Below are positions 13,047-32,453 of a DNA stretch of 50,887 nt, piece by piece. This DNA is from a virus. Under the pieces are notes generated by a model. It searched no databases and was not told the origin of the DNA. It was given only the letters and a program-made list of their open reading frames with translations. The position numbers and the translations under genes were made by a program. The stretch spans positions 1 to 50,887 of the IMG/VR virus record IMGVR_UViG_3300023180_000086, one strand, 5' to 3'. Positions within the stretch are counted from its first letter, which is position 1; each line of letters starts with the position of its first letter.

Positions 13047-13571
13047 TTACCTCTGTTGTTGTTGTGCCTGTGGTTGAGCCTGTTGTGGTTGCTGTTGCTG
13101 CGCTTGTTGAGGCGGCTGCGGTGCTGGTGCTGGAGCCGGCTGGCCACTAGACATTTCTGGTTGTGTATTTTGTTTATTAATGAATTCTGTTGCTTGCTCT
13201 TTCATCTTTGATAGAGCTTCTTCTTTCTTAGCTTGAATGTATCCTTCACGCTTTGCTCTGGCGATCATCTCTTCACCACCAGTGATCCAACCCGGTTCCT
13301 GCATATTTGGAACAAACTTTTGTAGTTTTGGATTGAATGTGTACCCAGGTACAGGTAGAATCATCGGGTTCATTTTGGCTGTTCCATCCTTCATCTTAGA
13401 AAACTGGACCCCAAACATCTGCCCTGGGGATGTCACCTTCGGATCTTTAATTCTTTTAATCTCTGTAACTTCATCTATAGTCTCTTCTTTTACTAGAGAA
13501 GCAGAGGAGTCAGCGTCCTGCGGCTGGTTCGCAATCTTTTCCAACTCTTGAAGAAAGTAGCTTGTGATCAT
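13047..13571 (-). CDS. KxA-tagged virion protein with P/Q-rich tail
   Basis: A 174-residue protein. LQELEKIANQ sits at residues 7-16 if the start is the ATG at 13571 (AGGA seven bases upstream), a better choice than the ATG six codons earlier. The middle holds a conserved-looking PVPGYTFNPKLQKFVP stretch, then a coiled helix, then about 40 residues of almost only P, Q and A. The N-terminal motif suggests capsid targeting or maturation cleavage. Function unknown. Confidence 0.65.
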   Translation of the reverse strand: MITSYFLQELEKIANQPQDADSSASLVKEETIDEVTEIKRIKDPKVTSPGQMFGVQFSKMKDGTAKMNPMILPVPGYTFNPKLQKFVPNMQEPGWITGGEEMIARAKREGYIQAKKEEALSKMKEQATEFINKQNTQPEMSSGQPAPAPAPQPPQQAQQQQPQQAQPQAQQQQR

Positions 13572-13578
13572 TAAAGTC

Positions 13579-14532
13579 CTATCGTGCATTTCTTTTTTCT
13601 ACCTCTTTCAATAGATTCTTATATCTGCTTTGCTTTTTACGATTATTCATCACTGCTGAGATACCACCAAGAACACCAAGAGCCAGAGGAGCCTTCGATC
13701 TACTCAGTATAAACTTCTTTAAAAAGTCTCTTTCAAGCTTCTTCTGAGAAGGTGCAATTAATCCTAATCGCTTAGCACGGTCTGTGCCAACGTCATACAG
13801 TTTGGTGAACTGTTTAGTGTCTAGTAGCGACCCTGATCGACCTACACTGGCATAATCTTTTGCAATGATAGTTTGCGCAGTAGGCTCTTTAAACATCGTA
13901 TTAAAACGATTCTTTGCCTCAGCAGCATCCACTCCATGTATTTGTTGGATGTCTGAAAGTATAGCATTCACACCATTCCTATCAATTGACTTTCCTTGTG
14001 CAATGCTTTGATTAACTCTATCCACTGTCGTGTTACCAGTTACTATCGGAGTCCATGAATGATTTTTTGTTAAATTTTGAGGGATTGATCCATCAAGCTC
14101 TTTCTTAATTGCATTTTCAAAACTATTTTTGATCTCATAATCCGGAATAACCACAGACCCCGGGACACTAATAGTCTGATTGCTTCTAACAATCATCGGG
14201 GCCAAGTCGTCTGCATTCTTAGCACCACCTTCTAACAAACCTTGCTTGATGTAGAAGGTATCAATCTGACGATTTGTATTTGCCTCTACCTGCTTCATTA
14301 AAGTCTTAGTATCTACTGACCCAAGACCCAATGCCAAAGGCACAGCAAAGGACACACCCATACCCTTAGCAAAAGCCTTTGCCGAAGAGTATGGATCTGT
14401 TGAAGCACGTAAGTTCTCAAGAGCACCCTGCGATTGCTCTTCTCGCAAGATGTCTTGAGGCGTTACCTTAGCAACTTTTTCCAGTGCTGAAGCGAAACTT
14501 ACAGCTGTAATGTGATGTCGATGTAGTTGCAT
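13579..14532 (-). CDS. KxA-tagged virion protein (317 aa)
   Basis: A 317-residue protein with FASALEKVAKV at residues 13-23, then helical regions and a hydrophobic segment near 52-68, and a basic end. It overlaps the sheath gene by 34 bases out of frame; no other start codon is available before the motif and no ribosome binding site is visible, so translation is probably coupled to the sheath. Function unknown; the motif suggests an internal or cleaved virion protein. Confidence 0.62.
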   Translation of the reverse strand: MQLHRHHITAVSFASALEKVAKVTPQDILREEQSQGALENLRASTDPYSSAKAFAKGMGVSFAVPLALGLGSVDTKTLMKQVEANTNRQIDTFYIKQGLLEGGAKNADDLAPMIVRSNQTISVPGSVVIPDYEIKNSFENAIKKELDGSIPQNLTKNHSWTPIVTGNTTVDRVNQSIAQGKSIDRNGVNAILSDIQQIHGVDAAEAKNRFNTMFKEPTAQTIIAKDYASVGRSGSLLDTKQFTKLYDVGTDRAKRLGLIAPSQKKLERDFLKKFILSRSKAPLALGVLGGISAVMNNRKKQSRYKNLLKEVEKRNAR

Positions 14533-17500
14533 GGATAGAGGGGGGAAACTTGGATTTGAACATTGATGGTATCTGGGTTTGTATCGTCTTGTGTAATACT
14601 GGTTAAGTTTGCGCTTGTGATAATACTACGCTGCACCATTGAAGATACGATGGCTTGGACATTCATTCCTAAGCCTTCAATAAACTCAGTAGTGATGTTA
14701 GATCCACCGATACGGTCAGCCAAGCTATCTCGAAGTGTTTTAGCGAAGTAATCAATTGCTTTAGTGATCGACAACTCACGCCTCTGCACTGTAGAGACGT
14801 CTGTAGCAAGCTGATGACGAATCTTCAATGGACCTGACTCATTGTCTTGTACGATAATCAAAGTACCACCGCCTGCAATGTCATTCAACTGAGACTTGCT
14901 GAAGTAGCGATTTGAGTATCTAAGACCTGTAAAGCCAGAGATTGATAGATTTGTAAAGCCTTTACCAACTGCCTGGAAGCCAACGCAAGATGCGACGACA
15001 CTAGCAAGGTAATGCCCATCCAAGAACTCCGAGTTAGACCCAACGGTAGCAACAGCACGAGGAGGCCATACCATGAAGGTTCTACGGCTTGCATACTCAG
15101 AACCATAGGAGGCAACTCTAGAAGCCTGGTCTACAGTAGATGTGATGCTCTTACCTTGGATGTACAAGTACCAAGACTGAGAAGACAGATCATTAGTGTC
15201 TGTTCCAGCAACATCCGCTGTATTTACAAGCAACTTAAAGGTATTAGAAGTACTTACTGAGGATACACGGAAACCGTATTGCTCTGAAGCAGCTCCCAAC
15301 AACAATCTACTTGCATGAGTATCAGTCTTGTATGAGTTCAATACAAGAATAACTTCATCACCTGCGGCTAGAGCAGTCTTCAAAGAATCGAAGTTTGCAC
15401 CCGCAGTTCCAAAATCTACCTCTGCAGTAAACTCACCATCAGAGTTGAAAGATGATGAAGTCAAACCATTTGAACCACTTACTACCAAACTAGCTTGAGA
15501 ATAAGAAGGGAATGCACGGCTGATAAAGGCAATTCTTTCCCCTTTGTTGGTTGCAGAAGACATTGTAGTAGCGTGGTTGCTGAATAATGTCACTACATCA
15601 CGGTCACTGGACAAAGGTGCCAACGCATATACATCCTCAGACTCAAGCATAGTTAAGGCTTCAGAATACGCTGTGGTAGACCCATTCGGACTGGAAGTCA
15701 ACTCAGCTGAGTTAGCAGCACTCAACCCCAATACTTTAATGCTAGTGTTGCCTACAGTATTTGTAAGTGCAAGTTTAGCGGCAAGTCCAAGTGGGTTTTG
15801 TGTAGTATCAGTACGGCCAATCTTACCTTCAATATCAGAAATAGAGTTAAGTGTAGTTAAAGAGGGATCAGAGGCTGCAGCACTCAAGTCTACACGCAAG
15901 GCTCTGTATCCAACGTAAACTTTAACAGCTGTACCTTGAGTTAAGTTTCCATCAAGAACAACTTGATTTGCGTCTGCGCCACCTTCAAAGTAGTAAGTAC
16001 GCTGACCCAATGTTCCAGAAATCTCTGTAACACTGTCTTCATCCAAGTCAGTAGTATTGCTACCAGCAATGCCTGCTACTTGAACCAAGGCTGTTACGGT
16101 AGAATCAAACTCAAGAGCATCGTCAGCGGTCAAAGCGGATTCTAATTGAGAGAAAGAAGGCAATGTACCGTTATCTCTTTCCAGCGTAATTGTTACTGTC
16201 TTAGCTGTAGCGCTGTACACTGCACTACCAATACTAGAGCTGTGACCTGCTCCAGCAGGGACAGATACCCAGGATACTCCTTGTTTATCTGTGATACCAG
16301 TTACAGTGATCATATTATCTGCAACAGCACTTGAACTAAGAGAGTATGACCCTGCGATGTGGATATAGTTCCCACTTACAGTTCCTGTGCTTAGCGTAGC
16401 TGCTGCAAAGGTATCAGTACCATCAGATCCGTCACCACTACCAGTATCTTCTTCAATAATGATGAACTCTAAAGTTTTTGCGCCATTTAAACTACCAGAG
16501 GTCAGCGTACCGGACCCGTCCAAGGCTCCTGTTACTAGGGTTGCATCTCCGCTGAACTTGATAACAACATTTCCGTTATGGGTAGCAAGAACACCAGTAC
16601 TAAGTGTTGCGCTAAAAGTACCTGCGGTAAATGTACCTGCAGTAGAGTCTACTACCTTCTCTCCAGCAATCCAGCCTTTACTGGAGCCAGATATGGTACT
16701 AGAAAGACCAAGAGCCTTAGTACCAATCAATGCTTCAATCTCAGCAACAACGATTGTACCCGCAGTGTCAAAAGCAAGGAAATCTCCTACAACAATATTG
16801 CTAATAGAAGAGCCAGACTTAAACAAGTTTCCAGCTGCATAACCGTTATCCGTTCCACTCTCATTTTGAGATGCACGCAAGATAAGTTTGAAGTCATTGC
16901 TTTCAGCAGCAGAGCCAGCCATTGCACCAACAGCTTCAAAATGGAAGTAGTTAGCGCTATCGTCGCCCAGTTGGTGAGTCGTTGCATTTACAGCTGATGT
17001 ACGAACTACATAATCTGCAGGCTTATCGATAACATTATAACTGAGAGATGTTTTACCTACATTGTAGAGAGGTGAATCCAATACAGAGGAAGTACCATCA
17101 ATTGAGTAAGCGCTTACATCAAGTTTCAACTTAGTAGCTGCAGTGGTAGTACCAACCACAGATGTGTTTGAACTATCTACAAGATCAATGATTTCCAAGT
17201 CATAGGAACGACCCAAGTGCGTCAAGCGGACAACGTCACCTTTTGCAGTGGCTGATCTTGCAGTGATACCGTAAGCCTGGAAGTCAGCAATGCCAGAGTC
17301 TGTAAGATAAGGGTTTGCATTGTTTGCATTCAGAGTTCCCGTGGATGTAGCAGAGATCAATACTGTCTCATCAGAAACAGATCTCAAAGCAGCTTGCGGA
17401 GTACCATTAAGTTTATCTAAGTAAACTTTAATACTTGCTGTATCTAGTACTGCGCCAGTATAGCTTGAAAGACCTGGCATACTGAATGCTTGAGTACCAA

Positions 17501-17681
17501 CATTTGCTTTATAGTTTCCGGCAAGGGCATCTGAATTAAAGGTGTTTGTAGCGCTAACAGCGTCTACAACGTGATAACATGGCCCAACAATAACTGGGAC
17601 AAGTGATGGTGTGGCTACAGTGGCCGCAGGAGCTGTATACTCTTGATTAACTGTAATACCAGGTTGCGATATGGCAGGCAT
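14499..17681 (-). CDS. tail sheath protein
   Basis: A 1060-residue contractile sheath protein. It opens MPAISQPGITVNQEYTAP followed by LVPVIVGP, the usual N-terminal arm and first strand of sheath proteins. The C-terminal about 250 residues carry the conserved core (VASCVGFQAVGKGFTNLS, LNDIAGGGTLIIVQ, RRELSITKAIDYFAKTLRD, VQIQVSPLYPCNYIDITL). The middle about 600 residues are Ser/Thr/Gly-rich insertions, making it much longer than T4 gp18 (659). Start at 17681 has GGAG nine bases upstream; a start 12 codons earlier does not. The insertions may decorate the tail surface. Confidence 0.88.
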   Translation of the reverse strand: MPAISQPGITVNQEYTAPAATVATPSLVPVIVGPCYHVVDAVSATNTFNSDALAGNYKANVGTQAFSMPGLSSYTGAVLDTASIKVYLDKLNGTPQAALRSVSDETVLISATSTGTLNANNANPYLTDSGIADFQAYGITARSATAKGDVVRLTHLGRSYDLEIIDLVDSSNTSVVGTTTAATKLKLDVSAYSIDGTSSVLDSPLYNVGKTSLSYNVIDKPADYVVRTSAVNATTHQLGDDSANYFHFEAVGAMAGSAAESNDFKLILRASQNESGTDNGYAAGNLFKSGSSISNIVVGDFLAFDTAGTIVVAEIEALIGTKALGLSSTISGSSKGWIAGEKVVDSTAGTFTAGTFSATLSTGVLATHNGNVVIKFSGDATLVTGALDGSGTLTSGSLNGAKTLEFIIIEEDTGSGDGSDGTDTFAAATLSTGTVSGNYIHIAGSYSLSSSAVADNMITVTGITDKQGVSWVSVPAGAGHSSSIGSAVYSATAKTVTITLERDNGTLPSFSQLESALTADDALEFDSTVTALVQVAGIAGSNTTDLDEDSVTEISGTLGQRTYYFEGGADANQVVLDGNLTQGTAVKVYVGYRALRVDLSAAASDPSLTTLNSISDIEGKIGRTDTTQNPLGLAAKLALTNTVGNTSIKVLGLSAANSAELTSSPNGSTTAYSEALTMLESEDVYALAPLSSDRDVVTLFSNHATTMSSATNKGERIAFISRAFPSYSQASLVVSGSNGLTSSSFNSDGEFTAEVDFGTAGANFDSLKTALAAGDEVILVLNSYKTDTHASRLLLGAASEQYGFRVSSVSTSNTFKLLVNTADVAGTDTNDLSSQSWYLYIQGKSITSTVDQASRVASYGSEYASRRTFMVWPPRAVATVGSNSEFLDGHYLASVVASCVGFQAVGKGFTNLSISGFTGLRYSNRYFSKSQLNDIAGGGTLIIVQDNESGPLKIRHQLATDVSTVQRRELSITKAIDYFAKTLRDSLADRIGGSNITTEFIEGLGMNVQAIVSSMVQRSIITSANLTSITQDDTNPDTINVQIQVSPLYPCNYIDITLQL

Positions 17682-17692
17682 AGTTATTTCTC

Positions 17693-18472
17693 CTAAGATG
17701 ATGATGTACTGACCCAACGAAGTATCTCGACGCCGTCTGAGTCACTATTGACCTCTCCGTCACTATCTATAGCATCTGGAAACAATAGAGATCCGTTAAG
17801 TTTTCTAGCGATTGTGTTAACTGTAACACTAATTTCTGAAAGTGTCTGTGCTGTTGGTGTGATTGACCACGTTTCTTGGTAGTAAACAGGAAATGAAACT
17901 GGGACATTAATAAAGTCCTCATCGCTGTCTCCACCTAAAAAAGAGTTGGCTGGCGATTCAGAACCAACGGTAACCCTCTGGCCAATCTGAAAGAATCCAT
18001 ACTTCTGTAACTCTCTACGATAAAACTTAAGCGCTTTAGCAACTGACATTGCTAAAGTTTCCGCCTCCAGACCAATCCTGGAGATACAGTTTATTACGTA
18101 TTGTCCTGTTAACATATCTGTATGCGTTCTCTTTCCGGTTGATATTTTATGATTTCTTAGATTGTCTAACCCAAGGTTTGCGTAATTAAAAGGGGTCCTT
18201 GAAACGATAATTGCGGGTCTTTTTTCGATTGTATCTGTACCGATCGTCCCCGAGTCCGTTATTATTATCTCCGTCACCGTCTCGCTCGTTCCCCCTGAAA
18301 ATGGGTCCTCGTCCGGTGTGTAAAGGAACTCCCCCGTCTCCTGTTGGCTGAAATAGTGGCGAAGAAACTTGAGGATTATGTCCTTGGTGTCGCTGAGAAT
18401 GTTGTTGCTTAGAGGATAATACGTTCTTATTACGGTTTCTCTTGCTGCTATTGCGTCGCTTCTTGTTCCCAT
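17693..18472 (-). CDS. probable tail terminator or neck protein
   Basis: A 259-residue protein just upstream of the sheath. It has RPAIIVSRTPFNYANLGLDN and, later, VPVSFPVYYQETWSITP, a beta-rich pattern seen in proteins of the neck/tail-terminator class in large myophages. AGGA lies about ten bases before the ATG. Its first 287 bases overlap the preceding gene out of frame. Assigned mainly by position between the neck protein and the sheath. Confidence 0.6.
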   Translation of the reverse strand: MGTRSDAIAARETVIRTYYPLSNNILSDTKDIILKFLRHYFSQQETGEFLYTPDEDPFSGGTSETVTEIIITDSGTIGTDTIEKRPAIIVSRTPFNYANLGLDNLRNHKISTGKRTHTDMLTGQYVINCISRIGLEAETLAMSVAKALKFYRRELQKYGFFQIGQRVTVGSESPANSFLGGDSDEDFINVPVSFPVYYQETWSITPTAQTLSEISVTVNTIARKLNGSLLFPDAIDSDGEVNSDSDGVEILRWVSTSSS

Positions 18473-18716
18473 CTAAATAATCCTTTATCGCTTTGTTAGT
18501 CATTATAGCAGAACTACCAGCCAGTAGCCCACTTATTACTGCACGAGCTCTGCTTGAGGGTGCCTTCTTTAAAGCTGATAAACCCCTTTCAGATACGTAC
18601 GCAGTTCCAGCTCCAGTACCCACGGCGAGAGCTGCCCTAACAGCATCTAAAGCTTGCTGCTTTCTTTCATTGATCTCTGCTATCTTTTCAAGCTCTCTAT
18701 AAAAACTATTTTTCAT
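18186..18716 (-). CDS. KxA-tagged glycine-zipper protein overlapping the next gene
   Basis: A 176-residue protein. RELEKIAEI at residues 7-15 is followed by a helical region with small-residue repeats (AALAVGTGAGTAYV, ISGLLAGSSAIM) that could insert in a membrane, then a basic hinge. The last 95 residues are read out of frame over the start of the next gene and are low-complexity (N, R, G, D). Start at 18716 chosen for GGGA seven bases upstream. The functional part is probably the first 85 residues; the tail may be passenger sequence. Confidence 0.55.
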   Translation of the reverse strand: MKNSFYRELEKIAEINERKQQALDAVRAALAVGTGAGTAYVSERGLSALKKAPSSRARAVISGLLAGSSAIMTNKAIKDYLDGNKKRRNSSKRNRNKNVLSSKQQHSQRHQGHNPQVSSPLFQPTGDGGVPLHTGRGPIFRGNERDGDGDNNNGLGDDRYRYNRKKTRNYRFKDPF

Positions 18717-18741
18717 ACTCATATCCCAATCTTATCAAAGC

Positions 18742-20089: not shown

Positions 20090-20446
20090 TTATGAATGAC
20101 GGCGTTGAAGTTCAGCAATGATTGCAGAGCGCAGCTCGTCAGTATCAACTTCTTCTTCAAATTCATCTTCGTCAGCAAAGAAAGCCTCGATAGCAGAAGG
20201 ATCACCAGCCATAGCTGCTTTTTCCATATCTGCAAACTCTTGTTGAGCAATAGCACGACCTGCTTGATCGTAAGCTACAAGAGTTTCAAGGATTTCATTT
20301 GTAGCAGAGGCTACTTTTTGAAGATCACCATCAGAATCTTGTTGAGCGATTAACTCAGCCAGTTCGGTCAAGGTGCTAGGCATATCTGCACTTGCAACTT
20401 TTTCCATGCCGCCTGTTCCATAGATGTTAGCAAAAATCTCATTCAT
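20090..20446 (-). CDS. acidic protein with three KxA motifs
   Basis: A 118-residue acidic helical protein with MEKVASA, LQKVASA and MEKAAMA spaced through its length, and an acidic end (DEDEFEEEVDTDEL). Three repeats of the presumed protease site in a small acidic protein fit a prohead core or scaffold component that is cut up during maturation. AAGGAG precedes the ATG. Role is inference. Confidence 0.65.
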   Translation of the reverse strand: MNEIFANIYGTGGMEKVASADMPSTLTELAELIAQQDSDGDLQKVASATNEILETLVAYDQAGRAIAQQEFADMEKAAMAGDPSAIEAFFADEDEFEEEVDTDELRSAIIAELQRRHS

Positions 20447-20457
20447 GTCTAGACTCC

Positions 20458-21255
20458 TTATCTTCTTGACTTCTTCTTCTTACGACGATTGTAAACGTAA
20501 GCAGCAGTTGCCGTCGTAGGCACACCATAGAACGCTCCGGTCTTACCAGCACCAGCTGCCATACCTTTTAGATCGCGCTTACGTGCATCTTCTGTTTGTG
20601 ACCTAGCTGCTCCGCGCAACTCCTTAGGATTTCTACGGCCTCTATAGTTTTTGAAACTTTGTATTGCCTGCTTTCCGCTAGCAACATCCATTATTCCTCT
20701 TCCACCCTTACGAAGCATTTCCATTATAGCTTCTCGGCTCATGGCTTCTTTGTCCATCTCTTCCTCGAGATCAGCTGCGAAATGCAAGAACTCATCTACA
20801 GACAACTCATTAATGTCAAAAGCGCCTGCTTCCTTGTCCATGCCTTCTTCTAACTCTGCTGCAAAAGCGATAAACTCTTCAGGAGTCAGCTCGTTAAGGT
20901 CAAAAGCACCAGCTTCTTTGTCCATTTCCATATCGCCTGCAATCTCATAACCCAATGCTACAATCTCTTCTGGCGAGAGGTCATTAAGGTCAAAGTCAGC
21001 GCCTGCTTCCTTTTCCATATCATCTGCCAAGTAGTAACCCAACTCTACAATCTCTTCTGGTGAAAGATCGTTGAGGTCAAGATCAGCACCGGCCTCTTTT
21101 TCCATGTCACCTGCAATCTCATAGCCCAACGCTACAATCTCTTCAGGAGTCAACTCATTAAGGTCAAAGTCAGCACCAGCTTCTTTTTCCATTCCGTCTT
21201 GAAGTTCGTAAGCTAATGCTACAATCTCTTCTGCTGACAAATTATTCAAATCCAT
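20458..21255 (-). CDS. repeat protein with six MEKEAGA units, candidate scaffold/core protein
   Basis: A 265-residue protein. Residues 2-170 are six tandem units of 27-31 residues, each DLN(D/E)LSPEEIVALGYE followed by an acidic helix and ending (M)(E/D)KEAGA. The last about 90 residues are strongly basic. Start at 21255 chosen for GGAG; it begins exactly at the first repeat. Each unit ends in the presumed maturation-protease site, so cleavage would release many small acidic helices and a basic tail. An internal core protein that is digested, or a multi-site protease substrate, is the simplest reading. Related to the next gene upstream, 21284-21961. Confidence 0.7.
   Translation of the reverse strand: MDLNNLSAEEIVALAYELQDGMEKEAGADFDLNELTPEEIVALGYEIAGDMEKEAGADLDLNDLSPEEIVELGYYLADDMEKEAGADFDLNDLSPEEIVALGYEIAGDMEMDKEAGAFDLNELTPEEFIAFAAELEEGMDKEAGAFDINELSVDEFLHFAADLEEEMDKEAMSREAIMEMLRKGGRGIMDVASGKQAIQSFKNYRGRRNPKELRGAARSQTEDARKRDLKGMAAGAGKTGAFYGVPTTATAAYVYNRRKKKKSRR
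20745..21252 (-). repeat. six-unit coding repeat, about 81-93 bp per unit
   Basis: Tandem coding repeat inside the gene at 20458-21255. Unit lengths vary slightly and bases differ between units while the protein pattern L-S-P-E-E-I ... M-E-K-E-A-G-A is kept, indicating selection on the protein rather than recent slippage. Confidence 0.8.
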
Positions 21256-21283
21256 TTTATACTCCATTGTATTATTTAAAAGT

Positions 21284-21961
21284 TTAGCCTCTTACAGCTC
21301 TATTAATTCCATACGCGGTTCCTACAACACCTGCACCAGTTCCTACGGTTTTAGCGCCACCTCTAATCATCTCTCCGTATGCATCATCCATCATACTCTC
21401 AAGTTGATCTTGTCTAGATGCATCTTGACCTCGTTTCTTTCTAAAAGCTTTAGAGGCAGTTCCTTTATCAGTAAGAGACTGACCATCTTTGAGTCTCTTA
21501 GCAGCGTCTTCACTTAAAGTGACGACATTCTTTGCATGCCGGCGCCCTCTACTATACTGTGCAACACCGGGGATATATTTTTTAGCCATACTTTTTACGT
21601 TAAAAGCTTCTTTTTCCATCTCTTCTTCAAGATCTGCAGCAAAGTGTAAAAACTCATCTACCGAAAGTTCATTCAGGTCAAAGGCACCCGCTTCTTTATC
21701 CATGCCCATCTCTTCTTCAAGATGTGCAGCGAACTCAATAAACTCTCCAACAGAGAGGTCATTCAAATCAAAAGCGCCAGCTTCTTTTTCAAAAGAGTCA
21801 TCTTCAAGGCCTTCTAAGATTCCAAGAAGTTCCTCGTCGCTCAACTCAGACAATGAAGAAGCAATCTTCTCCTGAGGCCCTAGGTAGTCGCTTAAGTCAA
21901 CATCACCGTTCTCTACAAGCTGTAGGAAGTCGGCTGCTGAAATGTCATTTAATGTAGTCAT
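21284..21961 (-). CDS. second repeat protein with EKxA units
   Basis: A 225-residue paralogue of the preceding repeat protein. About four units lie in residues 4-120, ending QEKIASS, FEKEAGA, MDKEAGA and MEKEAFN; the unit FDLNELSVDEFLHFAADLEE also occurs almost unchanged in the gene downstream. Residues 120-225 are basic and end with a glycine-rich hydrophobic segment (GGAKTVGTGAGVVGTAYG). Probably a cleaved core or internal protein. Confidence 0.7.
   Translation of the reverse strand: MTTLNDISAADFLQLVENGDVDLSDYLGPQEKIASSLSELSDEELLGILEGLEDDSFEKEAGAFDLNDLSVGEFIEFAAHLEEEMGMDKEAGAFDLNELSVDEFLHFAADLEEEMEKEAFNVKSMAKKYIPGVAQYSRGRRHAKNVVTLSEDAAKRLKDGQSLTDKGTASKAFRKKRGQDASRQDQLESMMDDAYGEMIRGGAKTVGTGAGVVGTAYGINRAVRG
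21598..21950 (-). repeat. four-unit coding repeat related to 20745-21252
   Basis: Degenerate coding repeat with the same L-S-x-x-E-F ... E-K-x-A pattern. The last two units are nearly the same in protein sequence as units in the neighbouring gene, which points to duplication or exchange between the two genes. Confidence 0.65.
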
Positions 21962-23104: not shown

Positions 23105-24169
23105 TTAGTAGGTGCTAACACTTGGGAAGACGATACCACCGTCCTCAGCAGAAGCCAAGTTGAATACACCATTACCATCGGCATCACCTGTACCAACAGC
23201 TGACTCAGAAGGCATTGCGTCTGGAGTAGTAGCCTTGTTGTACAAGATCAAGCGATTGATAGAGCTGACGTTACCAATACCCATACCAATGTCTTCATAG
23301 CATTGGAAAGTAATCAAGTTAGCGACCTTGTCAATGTAGAACTTAGTGTTGTTCAGTACAAGGAACTTACCCAAGAACTCCGGAGAAGTAAATCCATAGA
23401 TGTTACCAGTAGGCAAGATGTCAGTTTTGATAGTACGAACGATCTTACGACCCATAATAGTGTCAAAGTTGAAGCCGTCGATAACAACTTTACCTTGTAC
23501 AGTATCACCGAAGTCTTCAATAGTCCAAGCCAAACACTCGTCCCAGTTAACTTCGTTCATCAATACTTTGTCCAAACGACGACGCTTACCGTCCATGTTC
23601 TTGAACATTTTGATCAAGTCACCGCGCTGGAGAGTACCTTCAAATCCAGTACCAGTACCATTAGCAGCGATATCGTCAGTAGCTTGCTCACCCATAACCT
23701 GTTGGTTAGCAATGTCATTTCCAACACAGCTGTGGCAGTAAGTCAAAAAGCGATGGTCTTCTACTTCTTGAATGTCTTTAACAGCATTGTCTTCAATGAT
23801 CTTGGTGATTGGCATACGATATGCCATCAACTCTTGCTCAGTCTTTTCAAACTTTTCAGAGCTGATAGTGAAGAATGGAATCTCGTAGCGAGCACCTTGA
23901 ATGTAACGAACACGAGGTTGGCCACGGAAAGTCAAAGATACTGCTTGTGAGTTTGGCTCAATCTCATCTACGTATACCAGAGTGTCGTGGTTAACAGAGA
24001 CTTGCAAGTCTGCTTTAGAAACCATTTGTGGTGGCAAGATTTTACGAGCAAAAGAATTCTCACGCAGCTTGTCTCTAATGTAAGCATTGGCAGCTGCAGC
24101 GAGCTTTTCTTTGCCTTCAGGAGAGTCCAAGTGTGCGGAGAAAATACTATTTAATGATGTACCGTTCAT
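23105..24169 (-). CDS. major capsid protein (HK97 fold)
   Basis: A 354-residue protein. The N-terminal helix (LNSIFSAHLDSPEGKEKLA ... AYIRDKLRENSFARKILP), the strand RVRYIQGARYEIPFFTI and the E-loop/P-domain region around QELMAYRMPITKIIEDN fit major capsid proteins of large myophages. EGKEKLAAAA at residues 18-27 resembles the presumed protease site, so a short N-terminal cut is possible. GAGGAG lies before the ATG. It follows a decoration-type gene and precedes connector genes, the usual capsid position. Confidence 0.85.
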   Translation of the reverse strand: MNGTSLNSIFSAHLDSPEGKEKLAAAANAYIRDKLRENSFARKILPPQMVSKADLQVSVNHDTLVYVDEIEPNSQAVSLTFRGQPRVRYIQGARYEIPFFTISSEKFEKTEQELMAYRMPITKIIEDNAVKDIQEVEDHRFLTYCHSCVGNDIANQQVMGEQATDDIAANGTGTGFEGTLQRGDLIKMFKNMDGKRRRLDKVLMNEVNWDECLAWTIEDFGDTVQGKVVIDGFNFDTIMGRKIVRTIKTDILPTGNIYGFTSPEFLGKFLVLNNTKFYIDKVANLITFQCYEDIGMGIGNVSSINRLILYNKATTPDAMPSESAVGTGDADGNGVFNLASAEDGGIVFPSVSTY

Positions 24170-24737: not shown

Positions 24738-25100
24738 TTAATAATCAGATGAAAGTAAAAATGTAGTTAACGGATCTGAGTCACCAGAGCCACTGTATTC
24801 TGCTGCGGTCTTGGCTAGACCGGTTCCCAAAGGAATGCCTGCTGTAGTCTGTGATACAAAATCTTCAACCATAGCGAGGTCTTTATCCCCTTCGGCTAAT
24901 GATTTTGCATAATCTCTTGCATCCATGGGATCCATAATCCCACGCTCAACAGCTGCAGAAGCAATCTTTTCAGCGTAGTTATGGCGGTTAAGAACCGCAA
25001 TCTCATGGCGAAGACGAGAAATCTCTTCATTTTGCGAACGAAGGGCATGGGCAGCTTTGATTAAAGTTGCGTTTACCTCTTCACTACTAATTTTAATCAT
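24738..25100 (-). CDS. KxA-containing helical protein, candidate scaffold
   Basis: A 120-residue protein with a coiled coil (about residues 10-40), YAEKIASA (43-50) and LAKTAAE near residue 97. Placed between protease and capsid genes, where scaffold genes usually lie. The two presumed protease sites fit a core protein removed at maturation. Inference from position and motif. Confidence 0.6.
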   Translation of the reverse strand: MIKISSEEVNATLIKAAHALRSQNEEISRLRHEIAVLNRHNYAEKIASAAVERGIMDPMDARDYAKSLAEGDKDLAMVEDFVSQTTAGIPLGTGLAKTAAEYSGSGDSDPLTTFLLSSDY

Positions 25101-25112
25101 AAGTTCTCCTAT

Positions 25113-25598
25113 CTATTTTTGTGCTAACTTAGCAGCAATAGCTTGACGTAATAACTCTTTAGTATCAGACGCAACTTTTTGCTTACCAGGAGCAACAATC
25201 TTTGCTGTATGAATACTATCTTTATTAGCGTTCGACAACAAACTTTTAAGTGTTGGGTCGATCATCTTGTTTCTTTCTTCTGGTGAATAAGCCATAGCGG
25301 CTTCATTTGAAGCAAGCGCTGGATGGTGTGATTTATTTTCAGAAGAGCCGAAGCCAGACTTCTCAGCTGGATTATCACCATGATTTCCGCTAGCGGTGAT
25401 GTCAGCCTGCATAGCTTCTTTGGTAAAGGTTTCTACGCCTTGACGAGCTACCCATTCCAAAGCTGAAGCAATTTTTTCAATATCGTTTTCTGCATAGTCA
25501 GATACTTCTTGAGCAGAAGCAATCTTTTCTACCTCTGCATCAACTTCAGTATCGACACCAGAGATTGCAGACATAATCAAATCATTCAAACTAGACAT
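25113..25598 (-). CDS. KxA-repeat protein, candidate scaffold/core
   Basis: A 161-residue acidic-to-neutral protein with VEKIASA, IEKIASA, FTKEAMQ and KQKVASD. It starts in a TAATG overlap with the previous gene, behind GGAGG. Three small genes in a row next to the protease (24738-25981) share this design and probably form the prohead core together. Function is inference. Confidence 0.62.
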   Translation of the reverse strand: MSSLNDLIMSAISGVDTEVDAEVEKIASAQEVSDYAENDIEKIASALEWVARQGVETFTKEAMQADITASGNHGDNPAEKSGFGSSENKSHHPALASNEAAMAYSPEERNKMIDPTLKSLLSNANKDSIHTAKIVAPGKQKVASDTKELLRQAIAAKLAQK

Positions 25599-25981
25599 TA
25601 GTCCTCCAAGCAGCCAGAGCAGATTGATGATCCTTCTAAGTCAAAAGGATTGGTTTTACAAACACGGCAAAGACCTTGTTGCATCGCTTCTTTAATCAAA
25701 GTCAGCTCATGTACACAGGCGTGGGCCATTTGCTCACCAGCTGTCTTGTCCATAGCTTCGTCTTCAAAGTATTCTTGTGCTTGAGTTTCCTCATGCTGAT
25801 CTACCTCGGTCAGCTCTGAGGCAAGCTTCTGCAGGGTGTCCAGGTCATAGTCCATAAAAGGATTTTCAGTATTACCTGAGTTAGACAAAGCATTCATCAG
25901 TGTAGCTTCGGCAGTTTTTTCTAAAGTAGTCCCCGCATTTTCTGACTTGTAAAGGGACTCAAGCAGTTGATTCATATCCAT
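25598..25981 (-). CDS. KxA-repeat protein with zinc-ribbon end
   Basis: A 127-residue protein. LEKTAEA, LQKLASE and MDKTAGE occur in the first two thirds; the end carries CRVC ... CSGC, a four-cysteine zinc site. Start at 25981 chosen because AGGAG lies seven bases upstream; the codons before it overlap the protease gene. The gene is next to the protease and probably encodes a core protein. The zinc ribbon could hold it to the protease, which also has a cysteine cluster; that is speculation. Confidence 0.62.
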   Translation of the reverse strand: MDMNQLLESLYKSENAGTTLEKTAEATLMNALSNSGNTENPFMDYDLDTLQKLASELTEVDQHEETQAQEYFEDEAMDKTAGEQMAHACVHELTLIKEAMQQGLCRVCKTNPFDLEGSSICSGCLED

Positions 25982-25994
25982 TTGGATTCTCCTT

Positions 25995-27527
25995 CTAGAG
26001 AGACCCGAGTAATATACGGGCACTTGAAAAGTTATTAAAGTTAAGATCCCATTCCGGAACTACATCTGTATTATAATATACATTATGTAGATATGGGACT
26101 GTTAAAGAAAGATTATTTTGTGAAGAAACTTTTGTCAAAGAGTCAGTTAGCATATCGTTAAAGAAGTTTTTATAGTAAAAGTCCATATCATCTTCTACAA
26201 CACTATCCAAATCAGCGCCAATTGTTCTTAAACTTTTTCTGTATCCTGCATACGCTGACGCCACTTTATTAAGTATGTCTCCGCTGCCTTCTGTCATCCG
26301 TTGTACTGGTTTAATAACAGTAATACGCACAATCCGATTAGGCAAGTGCGGAGCAAAAGCAGACCTCCCTGGAATTAAGGAGGACAAAAGTCTTGCTATA
26401 CCACCGTCGTACATTGACCGTTCTATCCGTGGAGCCGGACCTATATGAGTTCTTCCCATTGGGAAAATAGTATTGGATGCCCTAAAAGAACTAGCCAAGT
26501 CTGGCCGTCCCATTCTTCTTAGCATTCCATACTGGAACTCATGAGGTTTTGCTACCATACCAAGCATAGCCATTGTTGATAGCAACTTCTCAAAAGGCAT
26601 TTTATCCATAAAAGCTCTTGGAATGTTTGGCTCACAAGACTGCGCTTTTATTAAAGATTCGCTTACAGCATTCGGTAGAATTTTTTTCTTAACTTCTGCA
26701 AGTTTTTTATAGGAAGCAACTTTTTCTCTTAAGCTGTGTTGCGCAGAAGCAACTTTCATTAGAACACCAGCCTCTTTTGCAGCTGGTACAAATACATCAG
26801 ACAAGTCGAAAAATCTAGGGAAAAAGTTAATGGCACCAACTACAGTTCCATCATCACGCACTCTTCCCATTTCGTTTGCAAGATGGCTGCAGTAATCCCT
26901 TGTAGTCTTAGAAACGTTACCGCATACGGAGCATACATCAAAAGGAACCTTACATCCCATAGAGATTTGACGAGGCTTACCGTTATCAATATCAACAATA
27001 ATCTGCTCGGCACCAACCTCTCTGGCTTTTTGCCTATCGTGACGAACAATCAATTCTACACGGTGCATAGGCCTGTTGTAGGTAACAAAAACAATGTCAC
27101 CAAAAGCGATTTCCGGATTTTTGTTGACGTGATGCTTATACCGAAGTGCATTCATGAAGGTTCGAAAGCCAAACTCCTTGATAGGAACTGGTGGCAAACT
27201 TTTGCCGTGAGGCTTAAGATAACGTCGTTCTAACTCGTCAATTACCTTCTGGGGATTATCAGTAAGATAGTCATGACCTAAAGAGATCTCGGGGAAGATG
27301 TCCCCGTTTACATTCATACCCCAAAACTCATGAGCTCCCATAGGGGTCATAAGAACGTATTGATACTTAGGGTCAGGTTTAATGCTACGAATAAATGCTT
27401 GCAGCTTAGGGTCTAAGTTACCAGCTACTTTTGTCATTCCCGACTTACTGGGGTTTACATCAATAGCTTCAGCGAAACATCTACCTAAAGTATCATGAGT
27501 ATGAAAGTGTATAACTTTTTCTAACAT
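25995..27527 (-). CDS. probable prohead (head maturation) protease
   Basis: A 510-residue protein. Residues 55-200 look like the herpesvirus-assemblin/HK97-type protease fold: a strand followed by YKHHVNKNPEIAFGDIVFV (His132/133 as catalytic candidate) and RQISMGCKVP (Ser189). A cysteine cluster follows at once: CSVCGNVSKT ... DYCSHL (199-215), as I remember from proteases of some large phages. The remaining about 300 residues contain KxA sites of its own (LMKVASA, REKVASY, LNKVASA), which fits self-cleavage. It stands before scaffold-like, decoration and capsid genes. The KxA motif in many virion proteins is its likely target. Confidence 0.65.
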   Translation of the reverse strand: MLEKVIHFHTHDTLGRCFAEAIDVNPSKSGMTKVAGNLDPKLQAFIRSIKPDPKYQYVLMTPMGAHEFWGMNVNGDIFPEISLGHDYLTDNPQKVIDELERRYLKPHGKSLPPVPIKEFGFRTFMNALRYKHHVNKNPEIAFGDIVFVTYNRPMHRVELIVRHDRQKAREVGAEQIIVDIDNGKPRQISMGCKVPFDVCSVCGNVSKTTRDYCSHLANEMGRVRDDGTVVGAINFFPRFFDLSDVFVPAAKEAGVLMKVASAQHSLREKVASYKKLAEVKKKILPNAVSESLIKAQSCEPNIPRAFMDKMPFEKLLSTMAMLGMVAKPHEFQYGMLRRMGRPDLASSFRASNTIFPMGRTHIGPAPRIERSMYDGGIARLLSSLIPGRSAFAPHLPNRIVRITVIKPVQRMTEGSGDILNKVASAYAGYRKSLRTIGADLDSVVEDDMDFYYKNFFNDMLTDSLTKVSSQNNLSLTVPYLHNVYYNTDVVPEWDLNFNNFSSARILLGSL

Positions 27528-27536
27528 TGGAATCTC

Positions 27537-28391
27537 TTAAGTAATGTCGCCAGGCTTCATTTGGTGTTTAGGACCAAAGAATGGCATCTCAGTTTCTTGG
27601 TAAAGTTTTTCTAATCTTAACACGTCTGCAAAAGTTTGCGGAGTGATTTGTGGGATTTCCATCATATTAGCCAAAACTTTTGAAGCCATTACTGGTTCTC
27701 TTGCCACTGTAGGAGCTGTTCTATGCAAAACTTTATAAAGTTTTTTTGCTTTGTCGTTCTTCAAAGAGGGATCTTCCTTAACTACGGCATTGTAATCACG
27801 GTTAACACTTCCTCTATTTAAGTACTTAAGACCTTTACCAATACCGTAAGTGGCCAAAGGAGCTCCAGCTCCGATGCCAATACCGGCAAGACCATACATC
27901 AAAGCGTCTCTAGCAACACCTTTAGCGCTCGCTTGTTTTATAATTTGTTTATGCTTATACATATTAGCTCCACCAGTTTTTGCCATAGGCACATAAGATT
28001 GGTACGGGCCTAGGTTTGTTTTTTGTACTAAGTTTCTTGCGGATTTAAAATCGATCTTTTTTTCTGCGACCATAGACTTTGGGTTCAAAAACATATTTGC
28101 AATGCTATCTTTACCACCCAATGCTGGTGCTAGGTTAACCCCGGGAAGCCCACCAACCACTGCCACACCTGATCCACCTAAGAACACCTTTCCCATAGTT
28201 CCTTCAGTTTTTCCTAGTGCTTGCATGTAGTTAGATCCACCTCGCTTTAATGCAGGAAGAACCTTGCCGGCTGTAGCCTTTGGTAGATTTCTTAGGCTTT
28301 TAAATAAGTTGTATCCCTTGTTTGCGACGGCCATACCTGCCCGTGCAAATGCTTCTTTTTCTAAGCCATATACCTGGGATACAGATTTCAT
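27537..28391 (-). CDS. KxA-tagged glycine-rich internal virion protein
   Basis: A 284-residue basic protein starting MKSVSQVYGLEKEAFA (motif at 9-16), then glycine-rich hydrophobic stretches (VFLGGSGVAVVGGLPGV, YGLAGIGIGAGAPLATYGIG) and IIKQASA mid-way. N-terminal tag plus membrane-prone segments fit an internal protein that may be ejected with DNA. It overlaps the preceding gene by ATGA. Function not known. Confidence 0.65.
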   Translation of the reverse strand: MKSVSQVYGLEKEAFARAGMAVANKGYNLFKSLRNLPKATAGKVLPALKRGGSNYMQALGKTEGTMGKVFLGGSGVAVVGGLPGVNLAPALGGKDSIANMFLNPKSMVAEKKIDFKSARNLVQKTNLGPYQSYVPMAKTGGANMYKHKQIIKQASAKGVARDALMYGLAGIGIGAGAPLATYGIGKGLKYLNRGSVNRDYNAVVKEDPSLKNDKAKKLYKVLHRTAPTVAREPVMASKVLANMMEIPQITPQTFADVLRLEKLYQETEMPFFGPKHQMKPGDIT

Positions 28392-29257
28392 CGACGAGTA
28401 GTCCTAATCATTCGAGATAGTTCTTTATGCTTTGCTTCAGCACCTTCAAGCATAACATAAGCTTCTTTGTAAGACATTGCTAACTTTTCAAGCCTAGTGG
28501 CCGCAAAGAGCAATGGGTGCTCTGAGTTGATAACAACAGGCTCTCTTAGCAGAGCAGCCTCCTTAGCCGTATTGATCCGTACACCTTCGCCTTGCAATCG
28601 CTCAGAAGCTGTCTTCATAATTGATGAGGCAAAGTTTTCTGACTCGGTTACTTCTGAAATAGCTCTAGCGATCTGAAGAATCCCGATGTCATCTCTCATG
28701 TGTGCTTGCTTTACATGCCCATAGAACTCTTCAGAGGTATCTTCCATGGATCTCATAATAGTATTTAGACTATACTCAGCCATGTTCTTTACCGAAGCAA
28801 CTTTTTGCTGTTCAGCAACCATCTCAGAGGACTCATCCAATCTAGGAATATCAGCGTTGTCTTCTACTTTAAAGATTTGCTCCAGGTCGAAGTCACTTTG
28901 TTTCTTCTCTCCAGGATCAGTCGCATAATCTAATGTCTGATCTGGAACGGACACTGGACGCTCTCCCAACTCTTCAATCAAAGCAGATGCGTCAGCTGGT
29001 GCAAAGTGATCACGGTTACCACCTTCATGAAACTGAGCTTTCCATACCGCTTGGTTGGTCATCTCAGAAACTCTTTGAATTTGGTTTTTGTTTAAGTTCT
29101 CATTTTCGATTACACTTCTAATAGCATCGTTTAATGATTCAGACTCTTTTCCTACAAAGCTAGACGCTGCCCTCTTTGCTAGGACTTGAAGTTTTTCAGA
29201 CGAAGCAGTCTTAACAAGGCTACCAGCTAACTTTTCTAATTCATAGTTCATAGACAT
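28388..29257 (-). CDS. multi-KxA acidic virion protein
   Basis: A 289-residue helical protein with ELEKLAGS (6-13), LVKTASS, QQKVASV, IMKTASE and RLEKLAMS near the C-terminus. First gene of the head-tail operon. The sites divide it into several fragments, as expected for a core or internal protein processed by the prohead protease. ATG at 29257 or two codons later (29251). Function is inference. Confidence 0.65.
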   Translation of the reverse strand: MSMNYELEKLAGSLVKTASSEKLQVLAKRAASSFVGKESESLNDAIRSVIENENLNKNQIQRVSEMTNQAVWKAQFHEGGNRDHFAPADASALIEELGERPVSVPDQTLDYATDPGEKKQSDFDLEQIFKVEDNADIPRLDESSEMVAEQQKVASVKNMAEYSLNTIMRSMEDTSEEFYGHVKQAHMRDDIGILQIARAISEVTESENFASSIMKTASERLQGEGVRINTAKEAALLREPVVINSEHPLLFAATRLEKLAMSYKEAYVMLEGAEAKHKELSRMIRTTRR

Positions 29258-29977: not shown

Positions 29978-30048
29978 CTGCAAATTTAGAATCTTTTGTG
30001 TCATAAGAGTTTTGTCACACAATCTACGTCTATACACTCCCGTGTGAC
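29978..30048 (+). promoter_or_regulatory. phage promoter element with leader hairpin, copy D
   Basis: CTGCAAATTTAG (29978-29989), 12 bases, CATAAGAGTTTTG (30002-30014). GTCACAC (30014-30020) pairs with GTGTGAC (30042-30048), then TTTGGG. It lies between the regulator gene and the membrane coiled-coil gene at 30101. Confidence 0.65.
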
Positions 30049-30100
30049 TTTGGGAGATGACATTAACTTTTGTACAAAAAACCTCTTAGGAGAAAAAGTC

Positions 30101-30706
30101 ATGGCTAAAGGCAATGCAAAATCGGGCAACAAACCAGCCCAAACTACCCCCGCAACCCCATCATCAACCCCATCATCTTCACAAGCTCTGCAAGAGGCAC
30201 ATGAAAAGATTGTTAATCTTGAAGAAAATGTGAATACTCTCACTCAAGAGAAGGATACTCTCACTCAAGAGAAGGATACTCTCACTCAAGAGAAGGATAC
30301 TCTCACTCAAGAGAAGGATACTCTCACTCAACAAAAGAGCAGCTTGTCTGGACAAGTGATTATGCTTACAAATGAGAAGAGCTCTCTGGTGACGCAAATC
30401 GAGGAAAAAGAACAGGCTATTGAGGACTTACGTTCTGCAATGGATAAAGCCGCTTCGGATGCTGCCAAAGAACTAGACTCAGCGATGAAAGCCAAGGATG
30501 AGGAATTAGCCTCTCTGCTATCATGGAAATCATCACACAGTCTCAAAATCATGGGAGCTACTGTAGGATCAATCATCATCGTCGCAGGTGTAGCATACGT
30601 AGTCAAGCGCTTCTTGCTGAGTGGCTCCGCTGAAGATGTCGAAGATGCTTTGGTAGCAGAGACACCAGACGGTGCAGTCGAGCTAGAGTTGGTAAGTAAC
30701 TACTAA
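30101..30706 (+). CDS. coiled-coil protein with C-terminal membrane anchor
   Basis: A 201-residue protein. A short basic, P/T/S-rich N-terminus (1-30) leads to a long coiled coil (about 34-140) that includes tandem heptads TLTQEKD, and a TM helix (KIMGATVGSIIIVAGVAYVV, about 153-173), then an acidic tail. Start at 30101 with AGGAG upstream. The shape suggests a tail-anchored tether in the inner membrane; function unknown. It has its own promoter element and terminator. Confidence 0.72.
   Translation: MAKGNAKSGNKPAQTTPATPSSTPSSSQALQEAHEKIVNLEENVNTLTQEKDTLTQEKDTLTQEKDTLTQEKDTLTQQKSSLSGQVIMLTNEKSSLVTQIEEKEQAIEDLRSAMDKAASDAAKELDSAMKAKDEELASLLSWKSSHSLKIMGATVGSIIIVAGVAYVVKRFLLSGSAEDVEDALVAETPDGAVELELVSNY
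30236..30337 (+). repeat. 21-bp tandem repeat encoding TLTQEKD
   Basis: Four perfect copies of a 21-base unit (first base 30236, unit starts ACTCTCACTCAAGAGAAGG) plus a partial fifth. Perfect identity between copies implies recent expansion, and heptad length keeps the coiled coil in register. Confidence 0.85.
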
Positions 30707-30788: not shown

Positions 30789-32453
30789 TTAGTTTCCTAG
30801 TTGGTAAAACTCTGGACGTTTAACATCCCACTGTGATGCTAAGAAAGCATATACCACTGTATGCATAAAGTCATCCGGTGTACCCCTTGGATGATTAAAT
30901 ACAATGCGTCGTCTAGTTTCAGAATACTCTGAGTACACTGAGAGAATATCTGCAGCAAAGGGTTCCATAATACCCCAGTTAGGAAACGCAATACCCTTAC
31001 TTACTGGCCCGGTCTTAATCAGAGTAAAGACATCTTGCATCACACGGGATCTATCTGTAGTGAACTTCTTTGCCTGGGCATCCCATTTAACTTTGTCTTT
31101 TTGGTTACCTGTATGCTGGTATAGGAGAACTCTAGCCTCTCCAAATGCTTTGCGCAGCTGTGCATTCGTATAGAAACCAAAGCCCCAGTCCGATCCAATC
31201 TTATTTACACCGTAGTGCTTACAGAGTTCAATAATGTTTCTCCAGCTATACTCTGGATCCGATTCTCTCCCTGTATATTTTTTCGCATACATTAAAGAAA
31301 AGCGGCCATTTGCATCGTACGCCCAGATAGACAAAACAGTATAAGAACCGTCCCCAGTTCCCCAGTCAACACCAGCCCATTTCTTCTTCGCCTGGTGTTC
31401 TCTAGATACGTTGTCAGGCTCTACCCAGAGTGTTCCTACACAGCACTTACGTACATCCTCTAGTGTTACTGGCTTTGTCCCAGAGTCGTACGATTCAGCC
31501 ATTACCTCATTTAAGAATCTTTGTCTAGGATAACGCTTCTGCTTTGCAAGTAAGTTGGTCCAGTGTCTTTCAAAGTGTTCTGCGTCGTGTCTATACGCAT
31601 AGGGAACTACAGGCTGAGGCAGCCTAAATCCATTCCACTCCCTATCCTTATTCGATGTACACACCCATTGCGCTTTGCCAGATACAGGGTTTAACTCCTT
31701 ACTGCACTTTGTACACTGCAATCCCTCTTTGCCAATATGCTTCTCAGTAATGCTTTGCCACTTATTACAGCCTTCACATTTAATCATCCACTCATTCATC
31801 GTAGAAAAGCGTTCCCAATAATACTGCAAGGGGTTATCCAGTGTCTTTGGCGTTCCTGCATAGATGCTCATTGGCCCGTCATCCAGTTCAGAGTGGAAAA
31901 GAACCTCCTCTACAACAGGAAAAGCATCGGTGTAGATGTCCTGGATCTCATCCATAGCTAGCACATCAGAGGAAATACCACGCACACGGTCTGCTGATCT
32001 ATACACAGATCTAAGCACAATCTTACTTTGGTTCATCCACCTTTTCGTTTGAACGTTTTGCGTTTCTCTAGCTCCGCGAATGTTATGCCCCGTAAGAGTT
32101 GTGAGAACAGGACTATTAGAAATAACAGAACGTAAACGCTCATCAGAAAATTCTCGCATCTGAGCATCAGAAGCCGAAACATACAACAACCTCAAGTATG
32201 GGATAAGATTAGAAAGAGAGATAAGAGTGTTACCTATAGTTGTACTCTTTTCGCACTGTCTGCCAAAGATTAAAAGCATCTTTCGACGCATAATCCCATC
32301 GCTTGTTCGAGTTACTGGACTGTTGTATATTTGTTCTAGCCAAGGTCTCCTGTCAAGTGATATAGGTTTCCCACGGTGCATCACAGAAAACTTAGTAAAT
32401 TGAAATGGAGTAAAGTTTATGGAATCAGTAGAACCTGGCATCAACGCTGACAC
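30789..32453 (-). CDS. terL: terminase large subunit
   Basis: A 554-residue DNA-packaging ATPase/nuclease. Walker A-like GRQCEKST (64-71) has Glu where Gly is usual; Walker B VLAMDE (164-169); the motif after it, AGTPKT (199-204). A zinc ribbon with C226, C229, C247, C250 interrupts the ATPase. The RNase H-like nuclease shows AGVDWGTGDGS (Asp363), GSDWGFG (Asp422) and GTPDDF (Asp527/528). GTG start at 32453 with GAGAGG upstream; its first 35 bases lie antisense to the start of a plus-strand gene. No small terminase or portal is adjacent, unusual for phages. Confidence 0.92.
   Translation of the reverse strand: MSALMPGSTDSINFTPFQFTKFSVMHRGKPISLDRRPWLEQIYNSPVTRTSDGIMRRKMLLIFGRQCEKSTTIGNTLISLSNLIPYLRLLYVSASDAQMREFSDERLRSVISNSPVLTTLTGHNIRGARETQNVQTKRWMNQSKIVLRSVYRSADRVRGISSDVLAMDEIQDIYTDAFPVVEEVLFHSELDDGPMSIYAGTPKTLDNPLQYYWERFSTMNEWMIKCEGCNKWQSITEKHIGKEGLQCTKCSKELNPVSGKAQWVCTSNKDREWNGFRLPQPVVPYAYRHDAEHFERHWTNLLAKQKRYPRQRFLNEVMAESYDSGTKPVTLEDVRKCCVGTLWVEPDNVSREHQAKKKWAGVDWGTGDGSYTVLSIWAYDANGRFSLMYAKKYTGRESDPEYSWRNIIELCKHYGVNKIGSDWGFGFYTNAQLRKAFGEARVLLYQHTGNQKDKVKWDAQAKKFTTDRSRVMQDVFTLIKTGPVSKGIAFPNWGIMEPFAADILSVYSEYSETRRRIVFNHPRGTPDDFMHTVVYAFLASQWDVKRPEFYQLGN

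Follow-up and report, generated by a model that had tools for sequence, protein, structure and literature searches.

Gene arrangement at the head locus

The DNA analyzed here (the window) is a genome fragment, 50,887 bases long, from a large phage that has not been cultured. Its head genes lie on the minus strand in the order terminase, protease, small proteins at 24738-26023, major capsid protein and tail sheath, and two adjacent genes encoding repeat proteins are flanked by a gene for a head-completion-like protein of 154 residues and a gene for a protein of 118 residues. In the list below and throughout the text, an arrow marks a predicted cut.

14499-17717, minus strand: tail sheath.
20090-20446, minus strand: acidic protein of 118 residues with three sites; its leader, MNxxxAxxYGTGxxEKxAS, is also found on the single-copy repeat-protein homologue of relatives.
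20458-21267, minus strand: repeat protein 1, 269 residues; six acidic units, each closing with (E/D)KEA, then a basic Gly/Ala-rich tail of 94 residues.
21284-21961, minus strand: repeat protein 2, 225 residues, a paralogue of repeat protein 1; four sites (QEKIA, FEKEA, MDKEA and MEKEA), then a basic tail of 106 residues.
23105-24169, minus strand: major capsid protein (phrog_2522), with a candidate maturation site, EGKEKLA24↓AAAN, in the N-arm.
24738-25100, minus strand: candidate scaffold of 120 residues, heptad-like; site AEKIA↓S in 44 of 47 orthologues; C-terminal end conserved.
25113-25598, minus strand: core protein of 161 residues; conserved sites at K42 (38 of 43) and K60 (45 of 48).
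25598-25981, minus strand: multi-site core protein of about 127 residues from the likely ATG (longest open reading frame to 26023); MAHA module and four-Cys ribbon.
25995-27527, minus strand: head-maturation (prohead) protease, 510 residues; invariant H132/H133 and S189; extra helical domain at about residues 290-460.
27537-28391, minus strand: basic protein with a 14-residue, capsid-targeting-like leader ending LEKEA↓F.
28388-29257, minus strand: multi-site protein of 289 residues; 7 relaxed sites versus 0.5 expected.
30789-32453, minus strand: terminase (phrog_675).
42994-44925, minus strand: protein of 643 residues outside the head cluster; 11 relaxed K-x-A-(S/G/A) sites versus 1.1 expected; N-terminal SLEKLA leader.

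The repeat proteins consist of acidic units and a basic tail

A sequence-only reading of this DNA had described two adjacent open reading frames with six and about four acidic units that close with (E/D)KEA and with basic tails, a description confirmed by the coordinates, the unit cuts and the charges. Unit boundaries were set by an in silico cut after (E/D/Q)K-x-A. By this procedure repeat protein 1 fell into pieces of 30, 29, 29, 31, 28 and 28 residues with charges of -6, -8, -9, -9, -8 and -9, followed by the 94-residue tail (+18), and repeat protein 2 into pieces of 34, 27, 30 and 28 residues with charges of -6, -9, -8 and -9, followed by the 106-residue tail (+11). The net charges of units and tail are thus -49 and +18 in repeat protein 1 and -32 and +11 in repeat protein 2, and neither tail contains an (E/D/Q)K-x-A site. 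At the DNA level, Tandem Repeats Finder reported an 87-bp period at 20925-21233 (score of 317) and a 90-bp period at 21616-21787 (score of 225).

The same reading had every unit ending in MEKEAGA, which proved too literal: this string closes 3 of the 10 units, MDKEAGA closes another 3, and FEKEAGA, MDKEAMS, MEKEAFN and QEKIASS close one each. The relaxed motif was nevertheless present 6 and 4 times in repeat proteins 1 and 2, respectively, compared with the 0.55 and 0.39 occurrences expected from per-protein shuffles, an excess too large to be due to chance. When the motif codons were compared between units, pS was 0.74 and pN was 0.056, with a pN of 0.44 for the whole unit. The motif codons have therefore diverged synonymously while the residues stayed nearly fixed, indicating that the motif is under selection and that the DNA repeat arose long ago. 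The acidic helix that had been proposed for each unit was recovered by AF2 modelling of the repeat protein from a 7-sequence alignment, in which one helix per unit was predicted to end at the motif site, with low confidence (mean pLDDT of 45).

No usable family was found in Pfam or PHROGs for the repeat proteins or the small core proteins. Known scaffold profiles gave no scaffold family match in PHROGs up to an E value of 0.1 or in Pfam, neither database yielded a match to gp22, to the T4 internal proteins or to a fibre family, and tblastn of the repeat protein against the phage collection returned no match.

Both tails, together with several of the leader-bearing proteins described below, carry a short hydrophobic stretch rich in Gly and Ala, in many cases close to the C terminus, followed by Lys/Arg (for example, AGAGKTGAFYGVPTTATAAYVYNRRKKKK). 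This stretch could serve in membrane insertion after ejection.

The head-maturation protease

Homologues of the 25995-27527 product include a protein of Gordonia phage Pupper annotated as a capsid maturation protease, Arash gp222 and phage G gp19. Its AF2 model had a mean pLDDT of 76. In a second structure aligner the best match was T4 gp21 (5jbl; Z score of 9.6, 2.8 A over 131 residues), followed by herpesvirus assemblins with Z scores up to 7.9. Foldseek alone gave no match to the model in the PDB at an E value of ≤0.001; many viral prohead proteases were matched to the model by Foldseek.

After the catalytic Ser, at about residues 199 to 215, the protease has a CxxC...CxxH zinc-ribbon-like insert, CSVCGNVSKTTRDYCSH, which is kept in most relatives and lost in some (CSITLDVSITRADYSKY), as if the zinc site had been dispensed with. 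The helical domain at residues ~290 to 460 is conserved, confidently modelled and fused behind a linker with several K-x-A sites, a layout that recalls the protease-scaffold fusions of herpesviruses.

K-x-A is enriched in the head cluster

Over-representation of approximately 1,200 gapped residue pairs was scanned in the head cluster proteins. K.A was the top gapped pair in the window (48 versus 19.2 expected), and it kept first place with both repeat genes excluded (37 versus 14.7 expected), a count reached in 0 of 500 shuffles. As a positive control, the same scan of T4 gp67, gp68, gp21 and gp22 returned I.E and L.E as the top two pairs. Since the measured motif of T4 gp21 is L/I-x-E (PMC9026906), the control recovered the known motif, which validates the scan and offers a simple route to head-protease motifs from raw genomes.

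K.A ranked first in 17 of 28 relatives, was among the top three in 22 and fell outside the top three in 6. It also ranked first in Salmonella phage Arash and Vibrio phage D69. On the tail side its rank was never better than 39, and [EDQ]K.A was in excess mainly within the structural module (80 to 130 kb) of a 186-kb relative. In Arash, the strict form [ED]K.A occurred 25 times in all proteins labelled structural versus 18 times in the rest (P = 0.012), a modest enrichment because tail proteins are included under this label; it became strong once the comparison was limited to the head cluster. The "coverage" values of Table 2 for Arash were set aside as evidence of cleavage, as several are 100% with two unique peptides and therefore should not be taken as residue coverage.

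Conserved motif sites in the capsid N-arm, beside the protease domain and in core proteins

The consensus of the motif is (L/M/F/I)-(E)-K-x-A↓(S/G/A). At residues 22 to 24 of the capsid N-arm, K-x-A is present in 40 of 44 relatives, typically as EGKEKIA↓EYGGSYIRDRLRE, and the capsid proteins of Arash and D69 have GL(V/T)KEA↓GAAMS(A/T)FVRQKLRE at the equivalent place. The capsid protein of phage G, which is remotely homologous, lacks K-x-A in its N-arm. In the protease, the motif is found just before the catalytic domain (K33-V-A35, with K33 conserved in 39 of 43) and just after it (K258-V-A-S, 36 of 46), and both flanking sites lie in low-confidence linkers of the AF2 model. The core proteins show the same pattern, with K45 of the 24738 product conserved in 44 of 47 and K16 of the 20090 product in 28 of 32. 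The folded domain of the capsid protein also holds a conserved K-x-A (K281, 44 of 45), and the tripeptide alone is therefore insufficient to define a cleavage site.

Enrichment and conservation together reveal one short motif common to the capsid N-arm, the protease flanks and the core proteins. The proposal that the motif is a protease site agrees with this distribution, and (hydrophobic)-E-K-x-A↓(S/G/A) is likely, as judged from sequence, to be the recognition site of the 25995-27527 protease. The genes at 20090 and 24738-25981 had been placed in the same set as the repeat genes, and rightly so, as those at 20090, 24738, 25113 and 25598 each carry the motif two to four times.

Homologues of the repeat proteins in relatives

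Relatives of the capsid protein are encoded in 236 viral contigs. In the five nearest useful relatives (L005-L009; capsid 60 to 68% identical), a single gene replaces the two repeat genes at the syntenic position. Its product, of 236 to 289 residues, has two to five acidic units, a GRVMAHA unit and a basic Gly/Ala-rich tail, and most of these products begin with the leader MNxxLAxxYGTGxxEKxAS, which is common to the 20090 family and the homologues of L005-L008. The window has two paralogues of this gene that match each other; their units are more regular, the leader is absent and the start is a unit. The number of units differs among relatives.

The gene for the homologue immediately follows the protease gene in far relatives. 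One clearly basic segment amid acidic units was found in the homologues of L013, L032, L043, L045, L050, L059, L063 and L070, whereas those of L033, L038, L069 and other far relatives are without a clearly basic segment, which counts against the precursor reading proposed below.

In the product of the window's 25598-26023 reading frame (minus strand), a MAHAxxxE(L)xxIKEA module occurs together with a four-cysteine ribbon, CRVCKTNPFDLEGSSICSGC. The MAHA module is also found in the repeat-protein homologues of relatives.

Proposed role of the repeat proteins

We consider it probable that the repeat proteins are precursors of internal head proteins, each composed of a cleavable acidic poly-unit propeptide and a basic cargo. 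From the units and their charges, the conservation of the motif, the homology and fold of the protease and the synteny of the single-copy homologue, all of which rest on sequence, we infer three things: cleavage at K-x-A, binding of the core by the units and retention of the tail in the virion. The acidic N-terminal halves would be propeptides of helical units of 27 to 34 residues ending in (hydrophobic)-E-K-x-A↓(G/S/A). Before maturation, many weak contacts made by the units would draw the protein into the prohead core, and the units would also balance the charge of the basic tail. Once the shell is complete, the 25995-27527 protease would cut after each K-x-A, the acidic helices, at about 30 residues small enough to escape, would exit or disperse, and the head would retain the basic tail with the DNA, along with which the tail might be ejected. 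The tail, basic and without a further (E/D/Q)K-x-A site over its 94 to 106 residues, looks like a mature product. The suggestion in the sequence-only reading that these proteins are shredded into small acidic helices is supported to the extent that the repeat regions would give pieces of 27 to 34 residues. Its term "scaffold" suits the N-terminal part, which is scaffold-like, but not the basic, site-free segment.

A scaffold that is wholly removed would differ from such a precursor in the fate of the tail, which would merely anchor the protein to the shell, the portal or the DNA and would also be lost from the prohead core. The repeat proteins resemble T4 gp22 in being multi-site, acidic and helical, their genes lie in the head cluster among those of other multi-site proteins, and no other gene here is a proven scaffold. 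However, the tails are basic and site-free, and in several far relatives (L013 and L050) a basic stretch lies between units, as expected of a product that is kept. In addition, a more plausible main scaffold is the 24738-25100 product, which is encoded between the protease and capsid genes and has conserved counterparts in 47 relatives. On balance, we regard complete removal as unlikely. Still less probable, in our judgement, is that E-K-x-A is an uncut docking motif or helix cap which binds the core, the shell or the protease, the repeats adding avidity only. The position of the motif at a predicted helix end in every unit and the conserved K281 site inside the folded capsid domain would suit such a role, and conservation of K and A alone cannot separate binding from cutting. 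Its conservation on either flank of the catalytic domain of the protease, and again in the N-arm of the capsid protein, speaks against such a role, these being the positions at which enzymes of T4 type and of herpesviruses cleave; in addition, enzymes of this class usually recognize a P3-x-P1 tripeptide (L/I-x-E in T4 and S/A-x-E in phiKZ; PMC9026906).

The repeat genes follow the capsid gene and lie between head-completion-like and tail genes, an arrangement that would also suit a fibre, a decoration protein or a tail-side protein unrelated to head maturation, and acidic repeats occur in surface proteins too. Against such an exposed repeat protein, the motif and, in relatives, the leader are shared with core proteins encoded before the capsid gene, the homologue of far relatives is encoded directly behind the protease gene, and no fibre family was matched in PHROGs or Pfam. 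We consider this reading very improbable.

The precursor with cleavable units is best read, on the sequence, as a regular-repeat form of T4/phiKZ-type maturation with a putative new specificity of Lys at P3 and Ala at P1. Proteins of this kind, substrates of prohead proteases, are known; what is unusual is the combination of acidic core-like units and basic cargo in one chain of near-identical helical units. This form is new as far as the literature searched shows, in which nothing relevant on repeat propeptides tied to prohead maturation was found. The propeptide as a clean array of near-identical units, varying in number among relatives, makes its role directly testable. K-x-A specificity of the head protease is predicted for a large uncultured phage lineage and also for two phages in culture, Arash and D69.

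A bolder extension, which we offer tentatively as a possibility and do not presume, is scaffolding by propeptide. The core would be spread over many chains, with tandem acidic core-forming units joined to basic cargo, such that loading and scaffold building become one step and one cut per helix both loosens the core and frees the cargo. The enzyme would then represent a third specificity class (P3 Lys, P1 Ala) in the gp21/assemblin fold, nearer to the Ala↓Ser/Thr cut of herpesviruses than to cleavage after Glu, as in T4 and phiKZ.

Comparison with known head maturation systems

The head core of T4 (gp22, gp67 and gp68; IPI-III and Alt; gp21) shares with the window multi-site core proteins, short cleavable N-terminal leaders, a capsid N-arm site, protease self-sites and the use of one P3-x-P1 tripeptide, cleavage in the window being predicted from sequence. 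T4 gp22 is cut into multiple fragments, and the internal basic proteins of T4 bear short cleavable targeting leaders (PMC9026906). The differences are that the motif in the window is K-x-A instead of L/I-x-E, that the sites lie in regular tandem helical units and that acidic units and basic cargo are joined in one chain.

In SPN3US, head and ejection proteins have long N-terminal propeptides with several protease motifs which are cut more than once to release inner head proteins (PMC5694885, PMC10052503). The SPN3US/phiKZ set compared here comprised gp50, gp53, gp54 and gp81 and the protease gp245. The propeptides of the window (175 residues with 6 motifs and 119 residues with 4) are comparable in length to the 111 to 254 residues given for SPN3US (PMC10052503). 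The SPN3US motif is A-x-E rather than K-x-A, the parts of the SPN3US reports consulted do not describe a tandem-repeat or charge-alternating propeptide, and no sequence match was found between the SPN3US/phiKZ proteins and the repeat proteins. The view that the window's design is distinct from that of classical single-scaffold phages stands for the regular tandem units and for the unusual presence of cargo in the same chain, but as worded it was too strong, given the 16 L/I-x-E motif matches in T4 gp22 (269 residues) and the multiply cut propeptides of SPN3US; core proteins with many sites are in fact the classical design of T4.

The herpesvirus assemblin/scaffold system (UL26/UL26.5) has a protease of the same fold class which cuts after Ala and is freed from a longer precursor via a site beside the protease domain; the predicted sites of pseudorabies virus are YLQA-T (R-site) and VQA-S (M-site) (PMC4498786). 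The herpesvirus scaffold has one maturation site near its C terminus, in contrast to one per helix in the window, and the likeness to assemblins in the predicted P1 Ala is one of specificity only. Arash gp220-gp226 and D69 0268-0275 have the same capsid and protease families as the window, K-x-A at rank 1 and a KEA↓GAA site in the capsid N-arm; unlike in the window, the multi-site proteins of these two phages are without regular tandem units.

Other multi-site and leader-bearing proteins

The 643-residue product of 42994-44925 had no match in the phage collection and no family match. A protein of 734 residues in a 186-kb relative (G007:98584-100788) carries 12 K-x-A-(S/G/A) sites. The 42994-44925 product is possibly the largest multi-site core or ejected protein.

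A leader of 11 to 21 residues ending (L/I)EK-x-A was observed on seven minus-strand proteins (27537-28391, 18186-18722, 42038-42994, 49607-50116, 50145-50873, 13579-14532 and 13047-13589). These leaders resemble the capsid-targeting sequences of T4, and a leader of this type, shared by otherwise different proteins and ending at a candidate protease site, is found here at the level of sequence. The seven proteins may mark the internal or ejected proteins of the phage. The idea that all leader proteins are basic was rejected, as window proteins with a short leader were overall no more basic than the rest (P = 0.41).

A perfect 21-bp tandem repeat encoding TLTQEKD (4.7 copies) was observed on the plus strand at 30234-30331, within a small opposite-strand open reading frame (29996-30706) whose product resembles a coiled coil and has a single hydrophobic stretch.
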